Virus record (IMG/VR): IMGVR_UViG_3300032118_000034
Coordinates: 1 to 32,824 of that record
Source: a virus
Length of the DNA stretch: 32,824 nucleotides
Reading direction: 5' to 3' (one strand)
The notes beneath the pieces are model-generated. The model ran no database searches. It worked only from the letters and a program-made list of their open reading frames with translations, and was not told where the DNA came from. Of this stretch, positions 102 to 23,249 are shown one piece after another (within the stretch, counting starts at the first letter, position 1; each line of letters starts with the position of its first letter). Both the position numbers and the translations under genes were made by a program.

Positions 102-1049
102 ATGCACTCCTTAATCAACCGCCTGAGAAGAAGACCTATTAGCATATGTGGAGAGATCTTTGGAGAGAGCACGATTCTCTCAACCGGCGAAGTAGTATGT
201 GGCTGTGTTGATCCTCTAGGTATCAATCCTTTAGGGAATATTAATCAGCAAAGTATTAAGGATATATTCTATGGAGACAAATATAGATCTCTGAGAGATC
301 AAATTCTGTCTTCCTCAAATGACTCTTTTTGCCCCGCCTTATCTTGTGATTGCTGCTTCAAAACATTGCCAGCTAAAGACGTTAATATTAGAATCCCTGT
401 AATAAAGAAATTGACTATTGAAACCACCTCATTCTGCAACCTTAGATGCCTAGATTGCAGTGTCCCCCGGTGGATGAGTGCCAAGTCTCCGAGACTCGCG
501 AAACTTGATCATAGGAAGATTGAGCGGGCTATAATGGATACCAGGGACGATCTTCAGCAAATATCATTATATAATTATGGCGAGCCCTTCTTAGATCATG
601 ACTTAATCCCCCTCTTACGATTTATAAGACAGAAGACCAAGGCCTGGATTTATATCCACACCAACGGCACCATCATGGCGGAAGGGGTGCCGGAGATCAT
701 AGCGCGAGAACAACTGATCCATGCCATCTCCTTCTCTATCGATGGCACTTACCAGGAGAGTTATGAAAGATATAGAATTGGCGGAGATTTCGAGAAGGCA
801 TTTAATAATATGATATCTATTCATAAGTATAAAAACATCTATAAAAACCAGTATCCTACTATTATATGGCAGTATATATTGTTTGATTGGAATGATTCCG
901 AGGAGGAAATAAAAAGAGTGCAAGAGCTGGCAGAACAGTACCAGCTCGATGTTCTGTGGGTCGCAACGCATTCAGTGGGGGCTTCTAAAAAATATGCCTA
1001 TGGCTCCCAGCGATTCAAAGATCTACCAGGAGCCAAGACGTTTAGGTAG
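102..1049 (+). CDS. Radical SAM protein with an N-terminal SPASM-like cysteine domain
   Basis: This is a 315-residue protein. The radical SAM [4Fe-4S] motif CNLRCLDC (CX3CX2C) is at residues 112-119, followed by a barrel-like region with the motifs ISLYNYGEPFLD and IHTNG. Residues 16-85 resemble a SPASM/twitch auxiliary-cluster domain: Cys16, Cys33, Cys35, the segment PLGNINQQSIKDIF, then Cys77, Cys82, Cys84 and Cys85. In most SPASM proteins this domain lies after the barrel, so the order here is swapped. Such enzymes usually modify peptides or other macromolecules by radical chemistry; the substrate cannot be read here. A GGGAGG at 85-90 lies upstream of the start. It is the only plus-strand gene and ends 30 bases from the end of the tail-tip gene, so it may be viral cargo or flanking host DNA. 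Confidence 0.85.
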   Translation: MHSLINRLRRRPISICGEIFGESTILSTGEVVCGCVDPLGINPLGNINQQSIKDIFYGDKYRSLRDQILSSSNDSFCPALSCDCCFKTLPAKDVNIRIPVIKKLTIETTSFCNLRCLDCSVPRWMSAKSPRLAKLDHRKIERAIMDTRDDLQQISLYNYGEPFLDHDLIPLLRFIRQKTKAWIYIHTNGTIMAEGVPEIIAREQLIHAISFSIDGTYQESYERYRIGGDFEKAFNNMISIHKYKNIYKNQYPTIIWQYILFDWNDSEEEIKRVQELAEQYQLDVLWVATHSVGASKKYAYGSQRFKDLPGAKTFR

Positions 1050-7257: not shown

Positions 7258-10200
7258 TTACCGCCATTGTGTGGACGCCACCAGTTGCTCAATCTCTCGG
7301 GTATGTTCCGCGAACCGTTGATCAAGGTCAGATACGCCATAGATCGGGGCATTGACAATGAGGGGCGCGTTTAAGGTTACTGATCCGCCCCTGCCCCCAC
7401 CCTCTCCAGCCATCCTCTGCACCCGTTCGGCTGAGAGCACATACTCACCACCAGGTCGATCTCCCACCACGGCCAGCGTGGGACGCGGGACAAATCCTTC
7501 ATCCTGAAATGATGGAATGTCCATAAGGGACGTATTGGGGGATCCTGAAAAGGGAATATTGCCTACATTATAGATACCACTGCGATTATATTCTCCGCTA
7601 GATACTAGCATATTTTGGAAAATACCACTGGTCCCACCGCCGCCCTTTACGGTAATAATATAGATATATTTGTATTCTGGCGTTGTCAGGTCATCGATCT
7701 TGGCCCGGGCGGATTCATAGCCTCCAAGCTTGATCGGCATATCTTTTCCCTGGCCGGCAATATCTCCTAGGTTGGTGATGCTGTCTTCCGCATCCCTGAT
7801 GTCTGCCGTTACTTGCATTGTTTGGGTCTCGCTTGCCCTCTCTTTGGTGTCAGTGATTGATTTGTCTGCGTTCGTTGTGTCCGCAACTATATTTGCTGTT
7901 ATGACATGTAACTCGTGGGCCACCTCCTCACCGCCAGCACAACCTAGCCAATCCCCGCCTCCACCTTCTGGTTTAGCGTAAACCGTGCTAACTATCATAC
8001 CCTCCCTGGTTAGGGCCCCTCCCTCTGGGATGACAGACATATAATAATCTCTATATTCGGCCTCTGTTTTCCCAGCGATACTTCCGAGCCTTAGGGTTTC
8101 AGCTTTGCCCATCAGCTCGGGATGTTCGATAGACCAAAGTGCCGTAGGCCCCACGAATGATGCTTCGTACATGGAGCCGAGATTCTCGACGGCGGAACGG
8201 AATGATAGAGGATCGAGTGCTTCGGTCCCGGTCAGAGCCTGGAGCTGTCCAATAATTATTTGTGTCGCTGCATTGTTAGCCTGAGTGCAACTCTGGCAAC
8301 TCTGGCCTAACGCATTTACGCTATCTTTGTTTCTCTCCATGCTGTCGCTGTCTTGATCGGTCTTATCTTTCAGGCCTTCCAAAGTATCATTAAGCAGTCG
8401 TTGAGCAATTGATACATCTTCGCGTTCTTTAGAAAGATCGGGCTCGTATTTGCCCAATCGCCCGCCCATCTTTTCTATATACTCCCGATTATATTGGTCC
8501 CAGGTTTTTAGAACTTCTGTGTTCTGAGCAATTTGAGAAGATGATTTAGCTATTGATCCTGTATTAACCTCTGATAATCCACTAACACCTTTGGGCTGTG
8601 GAATTCCGATGCCAGCGCCTATCTTCGGCACGTTTTCCCTGCCCCATTTATCGATTCCTGTTGATAACTCATTGGGGATACTGTCAAAAAAATCGGTTAT
8701 GGGCTTACTTATGGTGTTAGGCAAATTATCCATTGTAAATACAAAATCAGAGTATGCTCTTGTAATGTCAGATGCTCCAAATGACGCGGTATACCCCGTC
8801 CCCATCAATTGAGCTGGCGCTATTTCGACGGGCAACCCTGTCATCCTTGAAAGCCTGTCTGCATAACTCTTAAGCCCCCCGACTGATTGGATCAACATCG
8901 CGCCCGCATCGTCTGATTTATCTTCGAACTCCTGAGAGGCTCTAGCGTATGCATCCAGTGCTTGGGTGTCTTTGTTTACTGACGGTATAAATCCAGACGA
9001 ATCAGCAGTATCGCCAGAAACAACCACCGGAGGCACGTATGTGCTTATGTTAGTGGTTGGAATAAGTTTGAACCCTAATATGGCAGTGGACGCATCATTA
9101 ATAGCACCTACAAGCGTACTAGCAAAAGCATCTGCTAGCATTCGTACTGAAGCCAGAACACCTGCAATTGCCATTACTGCTTCATCATGGAAAGTGTAAA
9201 TTGCCTGGACGGCTCCGACTGATCCCTCTTTCATCTTCAGTTTCATTTCCGCAGCAATGAGCCCGAACTCGGCACGGAAGATCTGTTCAATTGGTTTTAG
9301 GAAGGCATCTAACGGAGTTTTACCTGTCAAAAAGGACCAATCCCATTTTATCAAACCGCGAGCAAGATCAAAACCTTCGCTAATTTGAGATGCTATATTT
9401 TTACCAAGTTCTCCAGCAAATTTATCCATCTTTGCGCCGACGCCTGAGAAATCTCCCGACCCCAGGCCCTCGATAAAGGCCATAATCGCATCATAACCAG
9501 AGGTACTAAATATGTCCAGGAGAGGCTGGATATCGGCCTGCATATCAGCACCTATCTTTTCTTTGATACCCTCGGCGGCCTGGCCGGCTCGGTCCCAGGA
9601 TTTGGTAAAGATTCCATCGACGGTGGAGGCCATGACTTTCGTGGTGCCTGTCGTATGCTCCATCTCATCGGAAAGTTCCCGGATGCCATCAATGTTATCG
9701 GCAATATTGGATATTAACATGCCGGTTCTAGCTCCAAAAATCTCTTTGAAATCAGAGAGAGAGGCCCCGGCATCATGCATCTTTTCAAGCGTGTCTAAAA
9801 GAGGTTCGGCTTTTACGCTACTGGCCGTCATACCTAACTTTTTAAGTGCTTCGGTGCCATCGGTTACGCCCGTCCATTTGATTTTCCCGGTTTTTTTATC
9901 ATATTCAGCTACAGGGTCCTTCATATTGGAAAGAGCCATAACGCCCATTCTAATAGCCGTAGTAGGATCGGGAAGGTCTTTTGCGCTCAGAACGGATAGC
10001 ATAGCTGCCGTATCCTCAAGAGACATTCCCCCCTCTTTGGCGGCCATGCCCAGAGTTTTCAGATCGATTGCAGCGGGCTCTAAATTGGATGAAGTGATAG
10101 CCTTTGCCCATACATCTGCTATATGGGAGTTATCCTCCATCGTCTTACCGAAATGAACCTGAGAGGATTCAACCAAATTGGTAGCAGTGACCATGTCGGT

Positions 10201-10728
10201 GTTAAGGGCGTGAGACAGCTCATGGAACGGCTCTAATATGGCTTCGGTCGGTGCGCCAGTAAAGCCGTATCCGTAAAGCTTCTGTAATGACTTGTTAATC
10301 TCTTCGCTGCTATCACCAGTAGCAACAGCATAATCCCGAGCAAACGCCTGGATCTCTTTGCTACGCGCCTGGAAACCAGAAGTGGTTGTCTCGCCGGTCT
10401 TGAGGGCCGTCTGTGTCGCGGCAGCCTCTGCGGCACTGGCGATCTGGACGGCTTCGCTTAATAACTCGAATGCTTCCTTAACCACATAAACAGCAGCGGC
10501 TAGTAAAGCGAGCTGACCAACTGCCGAGGAAGTGAAGCTACTGATCGCCCCTCCAGCGGATGCTGTCCCACTCTCCACTCCTGACGCATCGGCCTCAAGC
10601 TTGACGATGCCCGCGTCCTTAGCTTCATCCGCAAAGCTCTTTACTTTGTTCTCGGCATCGCTGAGTTTGCTCTCCAAGTCGTCCAGCTCAGCGGTTATCT
10701 TAACCTTAACTTCGCCAGCATCCGCCAT
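7258..10728 (-). CDS. Tail tape measure protein
   Basis: At 1156 residues this is the longest gene. It begins with a coiled coil (residues 10-45), followed by an Ala-rich hydrophobic stretch near residues 60-100. The next 300 residues match the TP901-type tape measure core: SREIQ-like AFARDYAVATGDSSEEI, LVESSQVHFGKTMED, LKTLGMAAKEGGMSLED, and FKEIFGARTGML. The C-terminus has the common FVPRPTLAVVGDRPGGEYVL segment, often seen at the end of tape measures. It sets tail length and helps to deliver DNA; at about 0.15 nm per residue the tail would be roughly 170 nm (an inference from length). A GGAGTT lies nine bases before the start. It follows the G/GT chaperone, as is usual. Confidence 0.93.
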   Translation of the reverse strand: MADAGEVKVKITAELDDLESKLSDAENKVKSFADEAKDAGIVKLEADASGVESGTASAGGAISSFTSSAVGQLALLAAAVYVVKEAFELLSEAVQIASAAEAAATQTALKTGETTTSGFQARSKEIQAFARDYAVATGDSSEEINKSLQKLYGYGFTGAPTEAILEPFHELSHALNTDMVTATNLVESSQVHFGKTMEDNSHIADVWAKAITSSNLEPAAIDLKTLGMAAKEGGMSLEDTAAMLSVLSAKDLPDPTTAIRMGVMALSNMKDPVAEYDKKTGKIKWTGVTDGTEALKKLGMTASSVKAEPLLDTLEKMHDAGASLSDFKEIFGARTGMLISNIADNIDGIRELSDEMEHTTGTTKVMASTVDGIFTKSWDRAGQAAEGIKEKIGADMQADIQPLLDIFSTSGYDAIMAFIEGLGSGDFSGVGAKMDKFAGELGKNIASQISEGFDLARGLIKWDWSFLTGKTPLDAFLKPIEQIFRAEFGLIAAEMKLKMKEGSVGAVQAIYTFHDEAVMAIAGVLASVRMLADAFASTLVGAINDASTAILGFKLIPTTNISTYVPPVVVSGDTADSSGFIPSVNKDTQALDAYARASQEFEDKSDDAGAMLIQSVGGLKSYADRLSRMTGLPVEIAPAQLMGTGYTASFGASDITRAYSDFVFTMDNLPNTISKPITDFFDSIPNELSTGIDKWGRENVPKIGAGIGIPQPKGVSGLSEVNTGSIAKSSSQIAQNTEVLKTWDQYNREYIEKMGGRLGKYEPDLSKEREDVSIAQRLLNDTLEGLKDKTDQDSDSMERNKDSVNALGQSCQSCTQANNAATQIIIGQLQALTGTEALDPLSFRSAVENLGSMYEASFVGPTALWSIEHPELMGKAETLRLGSIAGKTEAEYRDYYMSVIPEGGALTREGMIVSTVYAKPEGGGGDWLGCAGGEEVAHELHVITANIVADTTNADKSITDTKERASETQTMQVTADIRDAEDSITNLGDIAGQGKDMPIKLGGYESARAKIDDLTTPEYKYIYIITVKGGGGTSGIFQNMLVSSGEYNRSGIYNVGNIPFSGSPNTSLMDIPSFQDEGFVPRPTLAVVGDRPGGEYVLSAERVQRMAGEGGGRGGSVTLNAPLIVNAPIYGVSDLDQRFAEHTREIEQLVASTQWR

Positions 10729-10746: not shown

Positions 10747-11483
10747 TTATAATGCATCAGGAATATCCTTCTCTTCTGCTATTCGCTCGCATTCCTCGAT
10801 AGATCGTTTCTGGGGTTGCGATTTTATCAAAACGTCATCCAAAAATTCATTAGGTTTCTCGGCTCTGGACGTTGCTCCGGCGATCCAGGCCTGATATCGT
10901 TCTTCATTGATACGGTCGCGGCGGTGCTCTACCAGGAGATTAAGTTCAGAAAGACTCAGTCGCCAGAAGTCTCCGGGGAGGAGTCCGAGCTTTCCGGTTC
11001 CGAGTTCAATGGTTCCTCGCCAGGAGAAGGGGACTCTGTCTCCTCCGTCTCCTCCTTCACCCGAATCCGAGAAGGGGGGCCGAGGAACACATTTACAGCT
11101 TCCGTGAGCTTGTTCATAAGGTTAGCCTTAGCGCCGATTGTGACGAGATACTGCTTGCCATCGTTCCCGGCCTGCTCTTCCTCATAAGGTTGATAGGCAT
11201 TGGCATAGGCCGCATAGATAGCATCCACATCAGAGAGCTTGAACTTGCCCCGCTCGTGGTCAGTCAGAGCTCCATAGAGGCCGCACCAGAACAGGATACG
11301 GAATCTATCCATACTCATACGCTTGCGGTCATTAATAATGGTAGTAAAGTCCGCCCGGTCGTCTGGCTTCCGGCCTTCGGCGGTATTGACTATCGTCTCG
11401 ACCTTAGCCATGGTAGCAAAATCAAATTTGAGTTCCCGGGGCTTCTCGCCCGCCATGATTATGATTATTGGATTGTCGTCCAT
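10747..11483 (-). CDS. Tail assembly chaperone GT fusion made by -1 frameshift
   Basis: The first 137 codons are those of the G protein. At CCCCCCT (11073-11079) a -1 shift would continue in the second frame for another 108 codons to a TAA at 10749-10747, giving about 245 residues. The second frame has no usable start but is clearly protein-like: FSWRGTIELGTGKLGLL, GDFWRLSLSELNLLVEH, then RYQAWIAGATSRAEK. The 'LP.DFWRL...EL' pattern is that of the T part of tail assembly chaperones. The -1 frame is open from 11121. In lambda and many other tailed phages, G and GT bind the tape measure before tube assembly. The tape measure start is 18 bases downstream. The shift itself is inferred from the sequence, not shown. 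Confidence 0.82.
10956..11483 (-). CDS. Tail assembly chaperone G (unshifted product)
   Basis: A 175-residue product. The N-terminal 130 residues are folded (LKFDFATMAKVETIVNTA, MDRFRILFWCGLYGAL), and the last 40 residues are acidic and Ser/Pro/Glu-rich (ETESPSPGEEPLNSEPESSD). The low-complexity tail overlaps the second frame of GT, which explains its odd composition. The G form is expected to be made in excess over GT. AGGATGG lies six bases or so before the ATG. The position between the major tail protein and the tape measure is exactly that of G/GT genes. Confidence 0.85.
   Translation of the reverse strand: MDDNPIIIIMAGEKPRELKFDFATMAKVETIVNTAEGRKPDDRADFTTIINDRKRMSMDRFRILFWCGLYGALTDHERGKFKLSDVDAIYAAYANAYQPYEEEQAGNDGKQYLVTIGAKANLMNKLTEAVNVFLGPPSRIRVKEETEETESPSPGEEPLNSEPESSDSSPETSGD
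11073..11079 (-). other. Slippery heptamer CCCCCCT for -1 frameshift
   Basis: On the minus strand, the codons GGC CCC CCT of gene G contain C CCC CCT, which fits the X XXY YYZ rule for tandem -1 slippage (CCC/CCT re-paired as CCC/CCC). It lies inside the part of the -1 frame that is open (11121 to 10747), and upstream of the conserved T-like region. A purine-rich stretch, GAAGGAGGAGACGGAGGAG, follows 16 bases later; whether it helps as an SD-like stimulator is a guess. Confidence 0.75.
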
Positions 11484-11519
11484 AAATCCATCCTGCTATC
11501 ACGAAAATATTATAAAATA

Positions 11520-11558
11520 GTTTTGAGGTCAAAAGATATGGGTTTTCAACCTCAAAAC
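11520..11558 (-). terminator. Stem-loop between tail tube gene and G/GT
   Basis: A perfect 10-bp inverted repeat (GTTTTGAGGT at 11520-11529 and ACCTCAAAAC at 11549-11558, 19-base loop) begins immediately after the stop codon of the 330-aa tail protein. An inner AAAA/TTTT pairing could lengthen the stem. On the transcribed strand it is followed by a U-rich run (CTATTTTATAATATTTTC). It may be a partial terminator or an RNA processing or stability element that lets the abundant tail-tube message exceed that of the genes below. The same U-rich run also looks like a TATA box for G/GT. Confidence 0.5.
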
Positions 11559-12551
11559 CTATGGAGAATACGTCTCCCAAACAAACTTTCCCGTACCGTC
11601 GAAGGTCAGGTCCTCGGCCTGGGCATTCTTGATGTCCATGTCTACGTTGATCTGGTTCAAGCGACCCCATCCAGCGAAATTCTGTTTGCTAGTACTGTCC
11701 TCGACGAAGCAAACGATCATGGCCGGGATATTGGTATCCACGCCGCCATTAGCTAGATGAGTGTGGCCCAGAGCGGCAACTATGCCAGCTCCCGTCTCAC
11801 CGTCTGCAATCCTGGCCCGGAAGCCTATCGCCTTGCAGGCCGCGCTTGCTTCGATGGCTGCCGCTACCTGAAGAGCGGTGCTGGTGATACCGGCCGTGTA
11901 AGCTAATGTCACAGCGACCGCGTTGACCACAACGGCAATGCTCAGTACCCCTGGAGCACCTGGATTTATCATTTCGATGCTCAGAGCATCTCCCCCAACG
12001 CCAGCATCTTCGTCATAGAATAGGAGATGGCTGTGAGCATTTCCGCCTGATGTCAGGAGACGAGAGTGGGATGATTCCATGTAGAGCCTCCAGGTCTGCT
12101 CTTTAACATGGTGCTCCTTGGCGGTGACCTGCCACTCTTTATGGCCCTGTAGAAACTCCTTCCACCTACCCGAATCGATAGACGTAACTTCGATCTTATC
12201 CTTCTTGGGCTTGATGGAATAGCCGAGCTGTTCATCCAGTTTTCGGGCAGGCACTCTCTTCCCAGAAGCCCGCACCTTATCGTCTGCATTCAGGGCTCCA
12301 GACAAAGTAATCATGCCCCGGAGATAATCGAAAGTGCAAAGGCTAGTTATATCACTCCATCCACCAGATCCGTGTATCTGCTTTTCGATTAGAAATACTT
12401 CACCCGATTTCCAGTAGCGATAGTTAAAGGCAGCTGCCCAGCTCTTGTGATCACCCTGGTCAACTAGGTTGGTAGTCGTAAAGGTAGTTAGAGGGGCGGC
12501 GGGATCGCTAACATAGACCGCAGCCACCGCCCCCGTTAAGGCTTGTGTCAT
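11559..12551 (-). CDS. Major tail tube-like protein with an inserted domain
   Basis: 330 residues. It shares with the next upstream gene the blocks DKIEVTSIDS and WKEFLQGHKEW (at about residues 117-141), so the two are paralogues of the TP901-1-type tail tube family. An extra domain occupies about residues 170-285 (GDALSIEMINPGAPGVLSIA, STALQVAAAIEASAACKAIG, then GIVAALGHTHLANGG). This is the kind of Ig-like or decoration domain often inserted in phage structural proteins. The N-terminus also has about 90 extra residues. The C-terminus (LNQINVDMDIKNAQAEDLTFDG) closes the tube fold. It may be a decorated tube subunit or a specialised first or last ring. Confidence 0.75.
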   Translation of the reverse strand: MTQALTGAVAAVYVSDPAAPLTTFTTTNLVDQGDHKSWAAAFNYRYWKSGEVFLIEKQIHGSGGWSDITSLCTFDYLRGMITLSGALNADDKVRASGKRVPARKLDEQLGYSIKPKKDKIEVTSIDSGRWKEFLQGHKEWQVTAKEHHVKEQTWRLYMESSHSRLLTSGGNAHSHLLFYDEDAGVGGDALSIEMINPGAPGVLSIAVVVNAVAVTLAYTAGITSTALQVAAAIEASAACKAIGFRARIADGETGAGIVAALGHTHLANGGVDTNIPAMIVCFVEDSTSKQNFAGWGRLNQINVDMDIKNAQAEDLTFDGTGKFVWETYSP

Positions 12552-12560
12552 GCCCGCTCC

Positions 12561-12965
12561 TTAAGTGTATGCCAGAGCTGCAGTACCCTGGAACGTCATG
12601 GTAAGTTTCTGGCCATCTTTGAACGGCAGATCGGCGCCTAAATCGGTGACGAAGACGTCTCCACCGAAGACATTTCCTCCGGAATAATCCGCAATAGTCA
12701 GGGCGGTGGCCCCGGTCAGTAGGGCATCGTTAATGTAGCTGTCCACTAAGACTTTCTGGCCTGTGGTATCTCCCATGTAGAGCATCATCTCCAATGTGAA
12801 GCTCCATTCCTTATGACCCTGCAAGAATTCTTTCCACATGGCACTATCAATGCTCGTTACCTCAATCTTATCTTTCCCCGCTTTTATGGAGGCTCTGGTC
12901 CATTCCGCGACAGGCGCTGCCCCGATAAGTACAACGCCCAAATATCCTGCACGTGCTGCTGTCAT
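12561..12965 (-). CDS. Major tail tube protein (short paralogue)
   Basis: 134 residues, the size of a minimal tail tube protein. DKIEVTSIDS and WKEFLQGHKEW are shared with the 330-aa neighbour. The end (LPFKDGQKLTMTFQGTAAL) is the usual final strand of TP901-1-type tail tubes, FxxGDxVTxxFxG-like. Tail tube proteins polymerise as hexameric rings around the tape measure. The two paralogues lie 9 bases apart. Which of the two is the main tube subunit cannot be decided from sequence. Confidence 0.78.
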   Translation of the reverse strand: MTAARAGYLGVVLIGAAPVAEWTRASIKAGKDKIEVTSIDSAMWKEFLQGHKEWSFTLEMMLYMGDTTGQKVLVDSYINDALLTGATALTIADYSGGNVFGGDVFVTDLGADLPFKDGQKLTMTFQGTAALAYT

Positions 12966-14152: not shown

Positions 14153-14593
14153 TCATCGCCCCACCTTAAAAGCCTGTCCGGCCATGCTTGGGTTCTTCTT
14201 CAGGTGGCAAGCCGGATCGATCCCGTAAGTATACATATAGGGTCTCTTCCGCATGACGAGGCCTCCGCCTCCGGGTCTGTAATAGGTGACCCCGAGATCA
14301 TCATAGCTTCCACTGGGGATTTTCTCCTGGCCAAGGTCGAGCATGGGCAGACATGGGCAGATGTCATCTGGATCTTCCGCCGCCTCCACAAACCACTCGT
14401 CCAGAGCAGCCCCATCCCCAGGGATTTCCTCGGGAAGCACCAGTGCCCGACAGCACTCATTGCAACTCACCAGGATTAGGCCACCCGTATATTTTTTATG
14501 CTGGATTGCTAGCTTGATCTCTCGGGCGGTAATTTTAGTCTCCATCTCGCAGACGGGACAATCGATCAGGATCTCTTTAATTTCGTTAAACAT
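14153..14593 (-). CDS. Zinc-binding hypothetical protein
   Basis: 146 residues with a CPVC (about residue 12) and a CNEC (about residue 46) pair, the arrangement of a zinc ribbon, and a Gly-rich C-terminal half with RPGGGGLVMRKRPYMYTYG. The ATG at 14593 is preferred to the one five codons upstream because GGGGAG lies seven bases before it. The next gene starts one base after the stop. No specific function; the neighbours are neck and membrane genes. Confidence 0.65.
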   Translation of the reverse strand: MFNEIKEILIDCPVCEMETKITAREIKLAIQHKKYTGGLILVSCNECCRALVLPEEIPGDGAALDEWFVEAAEDPDDICPCLPMLDLGQEKIPSGSYDDLGVTYYRPGGGGLVMRKRPYMYTYGIDPACHLKKNPSMAGQAFKVGR

Positions 14594-14611
14594 GATTAAT
14601 CTCCCCAAATC

Positions 14612-16192: not shown

Positions 16193-16641
16193 AGGGCCAC
16201 CTGCCTCCACTGCACAACGCGATTATCGTCTTTGGCCTCTTTCACCAAACCTTTCACAGGCCAATCCCTGCTTGAGATCGTCAGCAGATCGCCAGGAACC
16301 ACGGCCTCCACACAAGTTACCAAAGCCTCACAGCTCAGCTCGTCTCCCTGGATGGTGCGGATTGTGCGAGACTGAAAGATGATATCACAGGCAATATCCG
16401 CAACAGAATAGATATCATCTTCCCCGTTATTTCCAATCTTGTATTTCCAGGATGCGGTATCTAGCAGAGGGATCTCTGGACGCAGCCATTCTGACAGGTC
16501 AACAACTAGTTCCCCATCAATTTCTTCACCGACGAGGTAACGTTGGGACGGTGGGGGAGGCGGGACGATGGGATAATCTGGGCCTAGGTCTACTATCACC
16601 TCTCCGTTTACTTCTTTGCCAATGATATACTTTTTAGCCAC
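16189..16641 (-). CDS. Head-closure-like protein with N-terminal repeats
   Basis: 150 residues. The N-terminus contains two 16-residue repeats (YIIGKEVNGEVIVDLG at 5-20 and YLVGEEIDGELVVDLS at 35-50) joined by a PPPPP linker. The C-terminal half (GDDIYSV..., VPGDLLTISSRDWPVKG, then DNRVVQWRQV) matches the small beta-barrel of head-closure proteins of the SPP1 gp16 type. The repeats are unusual for this family and may be surface decoration. Order of connector, closure, gp10-like and terminator genes supports the call. Confidence 0.6.
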   Translation of the reverse strand: MAKKYIIGKEVNGEVIVDLGPDYPIVPPPPPSQRYLVGEEIDGELVVDLSEWLRPEIPLLDTASWKYKIGNNGEDDIYSVADIACDIIFQSRTIRTIQGDELSCEALVTCVEAVVPGDLLTISSRDWPVKGLVKEAKDDNRVVQWRQVAL

Positions 16642-16653
16642 TCCTCAACCTCT

Positions 16654-18132
16654 CTAGCTCATATCATCAGCATAGACAGATCCGGCGGTTCCGGTGACCC
16701 TAATCCTTAACTCCATTACCCCGTCCTCGTCGATTGAACCCGATGGACCCGTAAGAGTTGTCTGGGCTACGTAGCTCGTGGTCATCGCCCAGGTATCCCA
16801 ACCGTCTATAATTTCTCCCTTCCACCACAGGCTGGCTTCAACCGTGCCATTAAAATCAGCGGACTTTTTCATGTAGACTGAGATAGACCGATCAGTGGAG
16901 GCCGCTACTGCTATTAGCCGCTGGAAATAGAAATAATAAGTTGCGGACGAGGGGATAATCTCTACGCATGATCCTGATTGTGCTGCCGCAGTATTCTTTT
17001 TCAAGTATCCGTATGTACCATAGGCTCGATCATCGTTAGTTGTAGTATTGAATTTCTTGAATTTGATATAATTATTAATTCTACCATCCGAACTATAAAT
17101 AATGCCTATGTTAGAACAGTTATAAAATTTTACTTCTGTTATATATCTAGGATAAAGAACCAAATTCATATTTCCAAAATCACAGTCGATAAAAGTTACT
17201 GGGCCAGTACTGTTCGAGGAGGGATACATTACGTCCGCGGCTGCCCCAAGACATGTGCATGAATCGAATAATATATCACCGAACTCCCAGGTAAGCCCGA
17301 AACCATTTGCCCACTTGCAATTTGTCACAGTGCCGAGGTAGGAAGCCTTGTAAGTTCTACCATTTAAGTTGAGCGCGCCCCGTTCACAATTTACGATGGT
17401 TGATGATTGCGCGCAAAGCTGGAGACCATTATTCGAGACGGCTATTGAATTTGATATAGCTATATTTGTCCCAAGGGCCAGCTCCCCAACAAAGAAATCA
17501 TAATTATAATTTAAAAAATTTAGTTTATCTATCGTGATGTAATTTATTGATGAACTGCCATATAATCCATATCCGTTAAGTGTAGTTCCTCCCGATTGAT
17601 AAAACCAAGTTTCGCCGGTCTGGACGGGAGGATTTTGTGATAGATCCCAGCCGCCGCTGATTTGCAGTTTGGAGCTGGCAGACGTTCCAGATGCCGAAAC
17701 AGCTTGCACTTGAGTGGTGGCTGCTGCTGCCGCTCCAGTATCGAAACAATTCGTCGCATTTAGTTTTGTTGCCGCGCCATTGGTTACGGTTGTGCCCCTG
17801 AAAGCGAAAGTAAGCGTAATCGTTTTCGCCCCGCCATTCACCGACACGACTTTCCAGTAGAGATTAGAGCCGCTTCCAGAGTTAGGGCGGATAAAATCGT
17901 TGGCCGCTACTTCTGCGGACAAATCAACAGACGTATTAACAGTTACAGAATCTTTCGTAAATGTAAGAGTGCCACTAAGAGCGGTTGCAGCTGGACTCGC
18001 CGCGCATTTGATGTGGTCGTTTCCCGTTCGCCCCGTTGTGGCTGATGTAATCGTCTTTTTTGGCAAAGTTCGGTCTAAGCCGGTATTAGCATCGTCGCCC
18101 GGAGCGGCCCAAGAAACGAATATATCAGTCAT
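16654..18132 (-). CDS. Beta-helix virion surface protein
   Basis: 492 residues. The start MTDIFVSWAAPGDDANTGLD, followed by PKKTITSA, is typical of parallel beta-helix proteins (the 'ddantGl....P.kTI..A' pattern). The middle contains many short beta coils (YLGTVTNCKWANGFGLTWEF, GDILFDSC). The C-terminal 120 residues form a separate beta-sandwich (YYFYFQRLIAVAASTDRSIS, then WKGEIIDGWDTW), perhaps a carbohydrate-binding module. It lies among neck genes rather than at the tail tip, so it may decorate the head or collar. No catalytic residue is identified. Confidence 0.7.
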   Translation of the reverse strand: MTDIFVSWAAPGDDANTGLDRTLPKKTITSATTGRTGNDHIKCAASPAATALSGTLTFTKDSVTVNTSVDLSAEVAANDFIRPNSGSGSNLYWKVVSVNGGAKTITLTFAFRGTTVTNGAATKLNATNCFDTGAAAAATTQVQAVSASGTSASSKLQISGGWDLSQNPPVQTGETWFYQSGGTTLNGYGLYGSSSINYITIDKLNFLNYNYDFFVGELALGTNIAISNSIAVSNNGLQLCAQSSTIVNCERGALNLNGRTYKASYLGTVTNCKWANGFGLTWEFGDILFDSCTCLGAAADVMYPSSNSTGPVTFIDCDFGNMNLVLYPRYITEVKFYNCSNIGIIYSSDGRINNYIKFKKFNTTTNDDRAYGTYGYLKKNTAAAQSGSCVEIIPSSATYYFYFQRLIAVAASTDRSISVYMKKSADFNGTVEASLWWKGEIIDGWDTWAMTTSYVAQTTLTGPSGSIDEDGVMELRIRVTGTAGSVYADDMS

Positions 18133-18136
18133 CTTT

Positions 18137-18544
18137 TCATCTCATCATGAGGAGAGTCGGTTTCAGGTAGAACCCTGTCATGTGGAATTCGATTGATCCG
18201 ATTGTTCCTGTTCCAAGGTAGAGCTTGATCTGCTTGCCTGCTTCTATCAATCGGGATGCTCCCTTGCTCTTTTTGCCTATTGCCTTAACGAAATCAGCAT
18301 CCTCCATATACCTAGAGGGATTCTGGTCATCGCCGCAGCTCAGAGTTCCGTCGAAGGGCTCTGTGATGCGGTACATGTAGTTCTGTAAAATGAAATCATA
18401 AGGCAGCGCCTCAGTCAACACATAGGCGGCGGGCTTAGAGATAGCGGCAACACATAGATCGGCAACCTTAGCCGTCTCCTCGCCAAGAAAATCCTCTCTA
18501 ATGAGAATCCCATCGAACCTTACTGGTATCTGAATTTCTGTCAT
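18137..18544 (-). CDS. Hypothetical virion-region protein
   Basis: 135 residues. It begins MTEIQIPVRFDGILIREDFL and continues with a Cys- and Asp-containing loop (TLSCGDDQNPSRYMED) and a basic helix (KAIGKKSKGAS). The C-terminus is beta-rich. It has AAGGAT before the ATG and ends just before the beta-helix gene. No family is recognised; it may serve as a connector or chaperone for its neighbour. Confidence 0.6.
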   Translation of the reverse strand: MTEIQIPVRFDGILIREDFLGEETAKVADLCVAAISKPAAYVLTEALPYDFILQNYMYRITEPFDGTLSCGDDQNPSRYMEDADFVKAIGKKSKGASRLIEAGKQIKLYLGTGTIGSIEFHMTGFYLKPTLLMMR

Positions 18545-21236: not shown

Positions 21237-23249
21237 CTAAACCCTCTTCACCATTATGGTTATTTCGCCTTCGGCAGCAGTCAGTACTCCCGTAAAATCC
21301 ACGGAGATAGAGTCTGCTGCTGCCAAGGTTATGCCACCTGATAGAGTTGCAGCTTGGATCGTGTCTGCGGCTCCTTTCATGTCGAATGCTGCGGTTTGGG
21401 CTGCCGCCCCAGCCGATGGGGCTTCGGTATCATCGCAGATCATGACGCTAGCCGTCACTGCACCCATATCAGATCCTACCACTCTTGGCAGTAGCCGTAT
21501 TGCGGTAATCTGATAAGCTCCGGTCGCCGTGAATATATGAGTATCCACCGAACTCGCATCATAATGGAATGTCACGGGTATCTCCTGTGGTACTTTGACG
21601 TTATTGACGGTGAGGCCATCCGTGTCGTTGATTCCAAGAGATTTGATCAGAGAGGCCGCTCCTGCCTTCAGCTCGCCCGTGACATGAGCCTTATTTACGT
21701 CCGCATCTCCAGAAGCTGTTAGTGTCACCGCAGATACGGAGCTATTGCTTGTGATAGCCTGACCCGTGAGCTGAGTACCAAAGAGGCCCGTTCCTGTGGC
21801 ATGGACATTAAGGGTATCAACATCTCCGGATGCTGTCAAGGTCACGCCCGAAACAGACGCATTGCTGGCTATATTAGCTCCCGTTATCGTTCCGCCCGCT
21901 TTCATCTCACCGGCAACATGGGCTTTATTGGAATCCATATCACCAGACGCTGTTAAGGTCACACCTGATACGGAGGCATTTGAAACGACATTAGCGCCGG
22001 TAATCGTTCCGCCCGCCTTCACTTCTCCTGCGACATGGGCCTTGTTGGAATCCAGGTCTCCGGATGCTGTTAAGGTCACTCCAGACACTGAAGTATTGCT
22101 AGCCACTGCCTGACCAGTTATAGTTCCACCAGCTTTGACTTCTCCTGCGACATGGGCTTTGTTAACATCCGCGTCACCAGAAGCCGTTAGGGTGACCCCT
22201 GACACGCTTGCGTTACTTGCTACGTTAGCCCCGGTAATTGTCCCGCCCGCCTTGATCTCACCAGCGACATGGGCTTTATTCGAGTCCAGATCCCCCGATG
22301 CGGTGAGTGTGACTCCCGACACAGAGGCATTAGATACGATATTAGCCCCTGTAATCGTTCCGCCTGCCTTCACAGCCGCCGAAAGGTGAGCATCGGCTCC
22401 ATCAATATCACCGGCAAAGGTGGCCGTTGAATTTGCTTTGAATGTGGCTACAGTAGCCAATCCACCGACCTTGATTGCTCCGGTGGCATCCATCGTGGTG
22501 AAATCGGCATCAATCCCAGCCACTCCCGCATCACTGGCAACCCTCCCGGCAGTCAGTATGTCTACAACGTCAAAATCGTCCGCTATAACTCCGTCATCGG
22601 TGCTGACGAGATGCTCTGCCGTCATAGTCTCTGATACATCTGCTTTTCCGAGCACAAGTATATCATCGTTGATAGTAGCATCATCAGTCGAGGTGAGCTG
22701 TTCCGCGGCAACGGTGCCTGAGAAAGTTCCAGCCGTGCCAGAAGTGCCGTTCAAGAACGTTATCGTACCGCCGTCTGCCATCATTCCGGTGGAGCCCAGC
22801 GTGAACATGGAAGCTCCGACCATCGTCCATCCGACGCCATCGATACCCAACACGGGACCGTTCAAAGTTACTATGTTGGTCCCACCGCCAAGAGTCACGG
22901 CTCCTGTAGTTGTCTTGTAATTTCCTGTCCCAAGACTCCAATCGAAAGCAGTATCCCCGGCCGTAACTGTAAAGTCGTATCCTGCACCCATCGCCAAATC
23001 TTGGCCGAACACTCCTCTAGCTATAGTGCCACCACCGGCGCTAATGCTACCAGTTACTGAGAGGTCGCCAGCAACGAGCGCATTCCCGGAATTGTTGAGG
23101 TCTCCCCCGATAGAGATATTCCCGCCGACCGTGACATCATGAGCAAAGTTAGGATTTGCTCCCTGGCCGTACCAAGAACTCTTAGCTCCGGCCATGCCAG
23201 TAACGGCAATCACCGCCAGAGCCGCCAAAAGAATGAGAAGTTTTCCCAT
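21237..23249 (-). CDS. Exported repeat protein with decoration-like C-terminus
   Basis: 670 residues in three parts. A signal peptide (MGKLLILLAALAVIAVTGMA, cleavage near AGAK) is followed by a beta-rich region with VGGNISIGGDLNNSGNA. Residues 294-527 consist of six copies of a 39-residue repeat (KAGGTITGANIVSNASVSGV, then TLTASGDLDSNKAHVAGE). The last 120 residues (VPQEIPVTFHYDASSVDT, then DSISVDFTGVLTAAEGEITI) resemble a domain often found in phage head fibre or decoration proteins. The gene directly follows the major capsid gene. It may form long surface fibres; why a virion protein would be exported is unclear. Confidence 0.72.
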   Translation of the reverse strand: MGKLLILLAALAVIAVTGMAGAKSSWYGQGANPNFAHDVTVGGNISIGGDLNNSGNALVAGDLSVTGSISAGGGTIARGVFGQDLAMGAGYDFTVTAGDTAFDWSLGTGNYKTTTGAVTLGGGTNIVTLNGPVLGIDGVGWTMVGASMFTLGSTGMMADGGTITFLNGTSGTAGTFSGTVAAEQLTSTDDATINDDILVLGKADVSETMTAEHLVSTDDGVIADDFDVVDILTAGRVASDAGVAGIDADFTTMDATGAIKVGGLATVATFKANSTATFAGDIDGADAHLSAAVKAGGTITGANIVSNASVSGVTLTASGDLDSNKAHVAGEIKAGGTITGANVASNASVSGVTLTASGDADVNKAHVAGEVKAGGTITGQAVASNTSVSGVTLTASGDLDSNKAHVAGEVKAGGTITGANVVSNASVSGVTLTASGDMDSNKAHVAGEMKAGGTITGANIASNASVSGVTLTASGDVDTLNVHATGTGLFGTQLTGQAITSNSSVSAVTLTASGDADVNKAHVTGELKAGAASLIKSLGINDTDGLTVNNVKVPQEIPVTFHYDASSVDTHIFTATGAYQITAIRLLPRVVGSDMGAVTASVMICDDTEAPSAGAAAQTAAFDMKGAADTIQAATLSGGITLAAADSISVDFTGVLTAAEGEITIMVKRV
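21669..22370 (-). repeat. Six tandem 117-bp coding repeats
   Basis: The repeats encode 39 residues each (starts at residues 294, 333, 372, 411, 450 and 489). Protein copies are very similar in the central three or four, whereas the DNA copies differ at many third codon positions, so they have been conserved by protein selection. The sixth copy is more diverged (TGLFGTQLTGQ). Confidence 0.9.

Follow-up and report, generated by a model that had tools for sequence, protein, structure and literature searches.

Among the closest described systems is the gpG/gpGT pair of phage lambda, in which G and a T frame that lacks its own start lie between the tail tube and tape measure genes and are joined by a −1 frameshift at G_GGA_AAG, a heptamer of the X_XXY_YYZ type inside G. 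In lambda, both G and the G portion of GT attach to the tape measure protein, and T attaches to the tail tube subunit (PMC5009743). Frameshifting of this kind is conserved across a wide range of long-tailed phages (PMC5009743; PMC8211752). Among haloarchaeal viruses, a −1 shift has been predicted in HVTV-1, HCTV-1, HCTV-2 and HCTV-5 and a +1 shift in HSTV-2 (PMC5009743; PMC8211752). The heptamers given are G_GGA_AAC for HCTV-1, A_AAA_AAC for HCTV-2 and G_GGA_AAG for HCTV-5 (cited in PMC5009743, PMC7911831), and Hardycor1 has a predicted −1 shift at G_GGA_AAT (PMC7911831), while a +1 G/T frameshift is predicted for the HF1 group (PMC7230728). A preliminary description of the DNA studied here had regarded archaeal examples as few, a statement that needs amending, as there are already several (PMC5009743, PMC8211752, PMC7911831).

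We analyzed a stretch of 32,824 nucleotides, called here the window, that covers positions 1 to 32,824 of the IMG/VR record IMGVR_UViG_3300032118_000034, from an uncultured virus. It shares with lambda the tail tube-G/T-tape measure order, the unstarted −1 T frame and an X_XXY_YYZ heptamer inside G, but differs in the heptamer itself (C_CCC_CCT), in the family of T (Phage_TAC_6) and in an overlap of ca. 165 nt. With HCTV-1, HCTV-2, HCTV-5, HVTV-1 and Hardycor1 it shares a predicted G/T frameshift of the −1 type ahead of the tape measure gene, in what may also be an archaeal tailed virus; however, the hosts of those viruses are halophiles, and neither G nor T of the window had a sequence match to any of the five in the phage collection. 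Streptomyces phage OnionKnight, whose chaperone is annotated as a joined gene, and myovirus ctGfd272 also have Phage_TAC_6 in a frame shifted by −1 relative to the chaperone ORF that precedes it, although their hosts are bacterial or unknown and the similarity of their T is remote (E about 2-3). Of the annotated viruses, the nearest is vir515 (BK063672), with its host given as Methanosarcinales, which has the same G/T layout but a different heptamer (G_GGA_AAC), with G annotated as hypothetical and T left unannotated. Our literature search, with most subscription papers outside its coverage, found no report of a G/GT frameshift in methanogen viruses. Such frameshifting is already known from haloarchaeal viruses, and what is new is probably a case in a lineage linked to methanogens.

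Two overlapping frames upstream of the tape measure gene

The features of the locus are as follows.
7258..10728, minus strand: tape measure protein (phrog_167, E 9.8e-16), with its start 18 nt past the T stop
10747..11121, minus strand: T, the −1 open frame, ending at TAA 10749-10747 and predicted to yield a 245-aa GT
10921..11028, minus strand, −1 frame: Phage_TAC_6 (PF09550) domain, straddling the G stop codon
10956..11483, minus strand: G, zero-frame tail assembly chaperone, an ORF of 175 aa from ATG 11483 to TGA 10956-10958
11073..11079, minus strand: C_CCC_CCT, a slippery heptamer read in G as GGC CCC CCT and thus in phase, the sole perfect X_XXY_YYZ of the overlap
11559..12551, minus strand: tail tube-like protein directly upstream of G (phrog_1407, E 2.4e-4)
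12561..12965, minus strand: major tail (tube) protein (phrog_1407, E 9.5e-14; PF06199 at cut-off)

The two frames are confirmed as first described, that is, a G of 175 aa that ends at 10956 and a −1 frame open from 11121 to 10747 that has no usable start. The last in-frame stops upstream of 11121 are at 11130 and 11124, and the open frame holds neither ATG nor GTG, its only TTGs (10842 and 10830) both lying 3' of the conserved domain. The heptamer, too, is where it had been placed, perfect and in phase with G. If ribosomes shifted there, the translated part of T would be 11073..10750 (108 aa), translation of 11121..11080 in the −1 frame not being expected; 137 codons up to the heptamer plus 108 beyond it give the 245 aa that had been estimated for GT. 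When the 32 minus-strand ORFs were compared, G was the only one with a long shifted-frame extension lacking a start near the junction, and in the others long extensions mostly corresponded to the neighboring gene, with a start near the stop. Past the end of G, the codon score is highest for the −1 frame, which is also free of stops there. By synonymous resampling, in which the amino acids of G were kept fixed and the codons redrawn according to the codon usage of the virus, the −1 frame of the window stayed open through the overlap by chance in 0.45% of the draws, and an open frame together with an in-phase heptamer appeared in 0.1%.

The strongest single point in favor of a G/GT pair is the match of the −1 frame to Phage_TAC_6, which agrees with its earlier description as T-like and is above the curated cut-off of 23.4 (30.7 bits by hmmscan and 31.6 bits in a six-frame search), over 36 of the 58 profile positions. 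The domain starts 70 nt upstream of the G stop, and its complete synthesis would thus need frameshifting rather than reinitiation at that stop. Ribosomes that make the entire domain have to enter the −1 frame upstream of 11028, where it contains no ATG, GTG or TTG. G matched phrog_2115, a tail protein family (E 8.7e-9), and found no match in the phage collection by tblastn. Profile searches of the PDB detected no relative, single-sequence AlphaFold modeling of G and T gave poor, mostly helical structures (pLDDT 48.5), and a Phage_TAC_6 search in 45 more distant viral records gave only two weak matches, both below cut-off.

Along the direction of transcription, the order is major tail protein, second tail tube-like protein, G/T and tape measure protein, matching the V-G-T-H order of lambda. 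This order, Phage_TAC_6 and phrog_2115 all support the proposal that the pair is a G/GT tail chaperone. The gene directly upstream of G is 46% identical over 115 aa to the vir515 gene at 16479-17477. Both homologs carry a similar-looking insert at different positions (in the C-terminal half in the window and near the N-terminus in vir515), which resembles a mobile domain that decorates the tail tube. The adjacent genes at 11559-12551 and 12561-12965 (minus strand) have the stretch KDKIEVTSIDSxxWKEFLQGHKEW in common, suggesting a tandem duplication. The gap in front of G (11484-11558, minus strand) is AT-rich and contains TTTTATAATATT, which may be a separate promoter for G/T.

The heptamer and its counterparts in related viruses

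Taken alone, the heptamer is weak and insufficient evidence, since a perfect in-phase one appeared in the G overlap in 31% of the resampled draws. Comparison with other viruses gives strong evidence. Searches of IMG/VR detected nothing closely related to G, the tape measure protein or the upstream tail protein, and an alignment of T alone was too divergent for scanning. Conservation was compared over three divergent lineages, namely the window, vir515 and IMGVR_UViG_3300042808_000057.

Identity between the window and vir515 is 43% for the terminase, 47% for the minor head protein, 46% for the tail protein and 37% for T, and the order of tail tube, G/T and tape measure is the same. In the vir515 record a hypothetical gene at 17549-17965 (G) is followed by nothing annotated up to the tape measure gene at 18257. 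Judged by its sequence, T fills this gap: over 17749-18252 the −1 frame is open and has Phage_TAC_6 above cut-off, and a single perfect heptamer, G_GGA_AAC at 17779, is present in the overlap. Read from an upstream TTG at 17507, G would have 152 aa and matches phrog_2115 (E 2.1e-6), which indicates that the public record probably starts G too late. The second lineage, IMGVR_UViG_3300042808_000057 (terminase 45% and tape measure 27% identical), has the same gene layout: G is 169 aa long, T lies in the −1 frame, and the overlap again contains exactly one perfect heptamer, A_AAA_AAG. As in vir515, T matches phrog_2066. Two contigs that are near copies of vir515 (L174 and L175) keep the vir515 G/T junction and were left out as non-independent of it. 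L174 (IMGVR_UViG_3300001592_000754) carries, toward the end of T, a small indel by which the last residues are read in another frame; this could be an assembly error.

The preliminary description had proposed examining related viruses for conservation of CCCCCCT. What is conserved across the three lineages is the X_XXY_YYZ class of motif, while the letters differ. Both independent relatives retain a perfect in-phase heptamer along with the two frames, and neither has a T start able to make the conserved part. The chance of a perfect heptamer per overlap is 0.31 in the window, 0.15 in vir515 and 0.16 in IMGVR_UViG_3300042808_000057, and the product of these values, i.e., the joint chance for all three lineages, is ca. 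0.007; the chance of a −1 frame open through the overlap is 0.003-0.005 in each. The heptamers are 14, 10 and 6 codons, respectively, from the upstream end of the overlap, a closeness with P of ca. 0.02 if they were randomly placed. A working shift site is expected near this edge because the −1 frame must be stop-free only beyond the site. Folding of the sequence downstream of the three heptamers found no stimulatory RNA structure that stands out (z −1.1 to +1.0), and the lack of an evident hairpin would fit a low slip rate such as that of lambda. No Shine-Dalgarno-like stretch was seen by eye just upstream of C_CCC_CCT.

Taking these data together, we assign a probability of roughly 90% to a lambda-type G/GT pair produced by −1 frameshifting at C_CCC_CCT.

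Other readings of the junction

A sequencing or assembly error that dropped one base from the C run of a continuous gene, or a real mutation disrupting it, appears very unlikely. The predicted shift site is a homopolymer, a kind of sequence prone to indel errors and mutations, and the window virus is represented by a single assembly. However, the same two-frame layout is present in two divergent relatives at different sites, one of which (G_GGA_AAC) is not a homopolymer, and the maintenance of the motif class with different letters makes it less likely that the C6 run contains a sequencing error. Furthermore, the two other assemblies close to vir515 preserve the junction, and in the window both frames remain open for ca. 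39 codons beyond the heptamer.

We give equally little credit to a −1 shift elsewhere in the overlap, for example at the tetramer C_CCT near 11031 or at a C_CCG further on. Slipping near 11031 would retain almost the whole Phage_TAC_6 domain, and tetramers of this kind, which do occur in the overlap, are mildly shift-prone in E. coli (C_CC.Y, including C_CC.U; PMC4066793). However, they are much weaker than the best heptamers of that study, whose consulted text lists no value for C_CC.C_CC.U, and all three lineages have a single perfect heptamer near the upstream edge of the overlap.

Separate synthesis of T, through reinitiation or initiation at a non-canonical codon close to the end of G, seems less probable still. 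CTG 10959 overlaps the TGA of G in a manner that resembles coupled genes, but the Phage_TAC_6 domain begins at 11028, before every ATG, GTG or TTG of the frame as well as before CTG 10959 and ATT 11010. The situation in vir515 is the same, as the open stretch has no ATG, GTG or TTG until 18160, past the conserved domain at 17926-18036. Finally, polymerase slippage on the C run, leading to a mixed mRNA, is the most improbable of all, in spite of the homopolymers found in the window (C6) and in one relative (A6), since the longest run in the GGGAAAC of vir515 is three, unfit for transcriptional slippage, and even six bases are short for this to be efficient.

Proposed mechanism, host and significance

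Under the frameshifting reading, most ribosomes would read G to the TGA at 10956, and a minority would move into the −1 frame at C_CCC_CCT (11079-11073), where CCC would again offer a perfect match to one or both tRNA-Pro. The slipped ribosomes would then continue in the T frame to 10747, giving the 245-aa GT with Phage_TAC_6 at its C-terminal end. By analogy with lambda, we infer that many copies of G and few of GT would coat the tape measure protein, encoded next, with the T part recruiting the tail tube subunit; the G:GT ratio would be set by the frequency of slippage.

An archaeal host is plausible for the window virus, mainly through its relationship to one virus, vir515, which is the nearest relative for the terminase, minor head protein, tail protein and T. 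The capsid protein is closest to those of gut-sample phages and of phages with Firmicutes as hosts. No tRNA genes were found in the window. A provirus scan by terminase alignment, in which the matches listed were all bacterial and almost all from Firmicutes at ca. 37-41% identity, was not informative for the G/T gene. The more specific reading, in which G/GT frameshifting operates in a lineage of tailed viruses of Methanosarcinales, with one perfect heptamer replaced by another between lineages while the −1 layout is kept and, in this case, a proline heptamer C_CCC_CCT read by archaeal tRNA-Pro with no evident stimulatory structure, stands at about even odds.

Other genes of the window also drew our attention. 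Just downstream of the major capsid gene (21237-23249, minus strand) there is a 670-aa protein with a signal-peptide-like start, no family match and at least 5 repeats of 39 aa (117 nt), KAGGTITGANVxSNASVSGVTLTASGD. A Radical SAM/SPASM-like protein (102-1049, plus strand) is encoded on the strand opposite to the structural genes. The product of 14153-14608 (minus strand), of unknown family, is 60% identical to one in IMGVR_UViG_3300042808_000057 and far more conserved than the surrounding structural genes.

The general picture of G/GT frameshifting is unchanged by this case. The conserved tail chaperone frameshift probably extends to viruses linked to methanogens, and two genes appear to have been missed by annotation, namely T in the window and the one filling the gap before the vir515 tape measure gene. 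Given that there are few experimental cases of archaeal recoding (PMC8211752), the three heptamers would provide a useful natural set for testing slippage by archaeal ribosomes.
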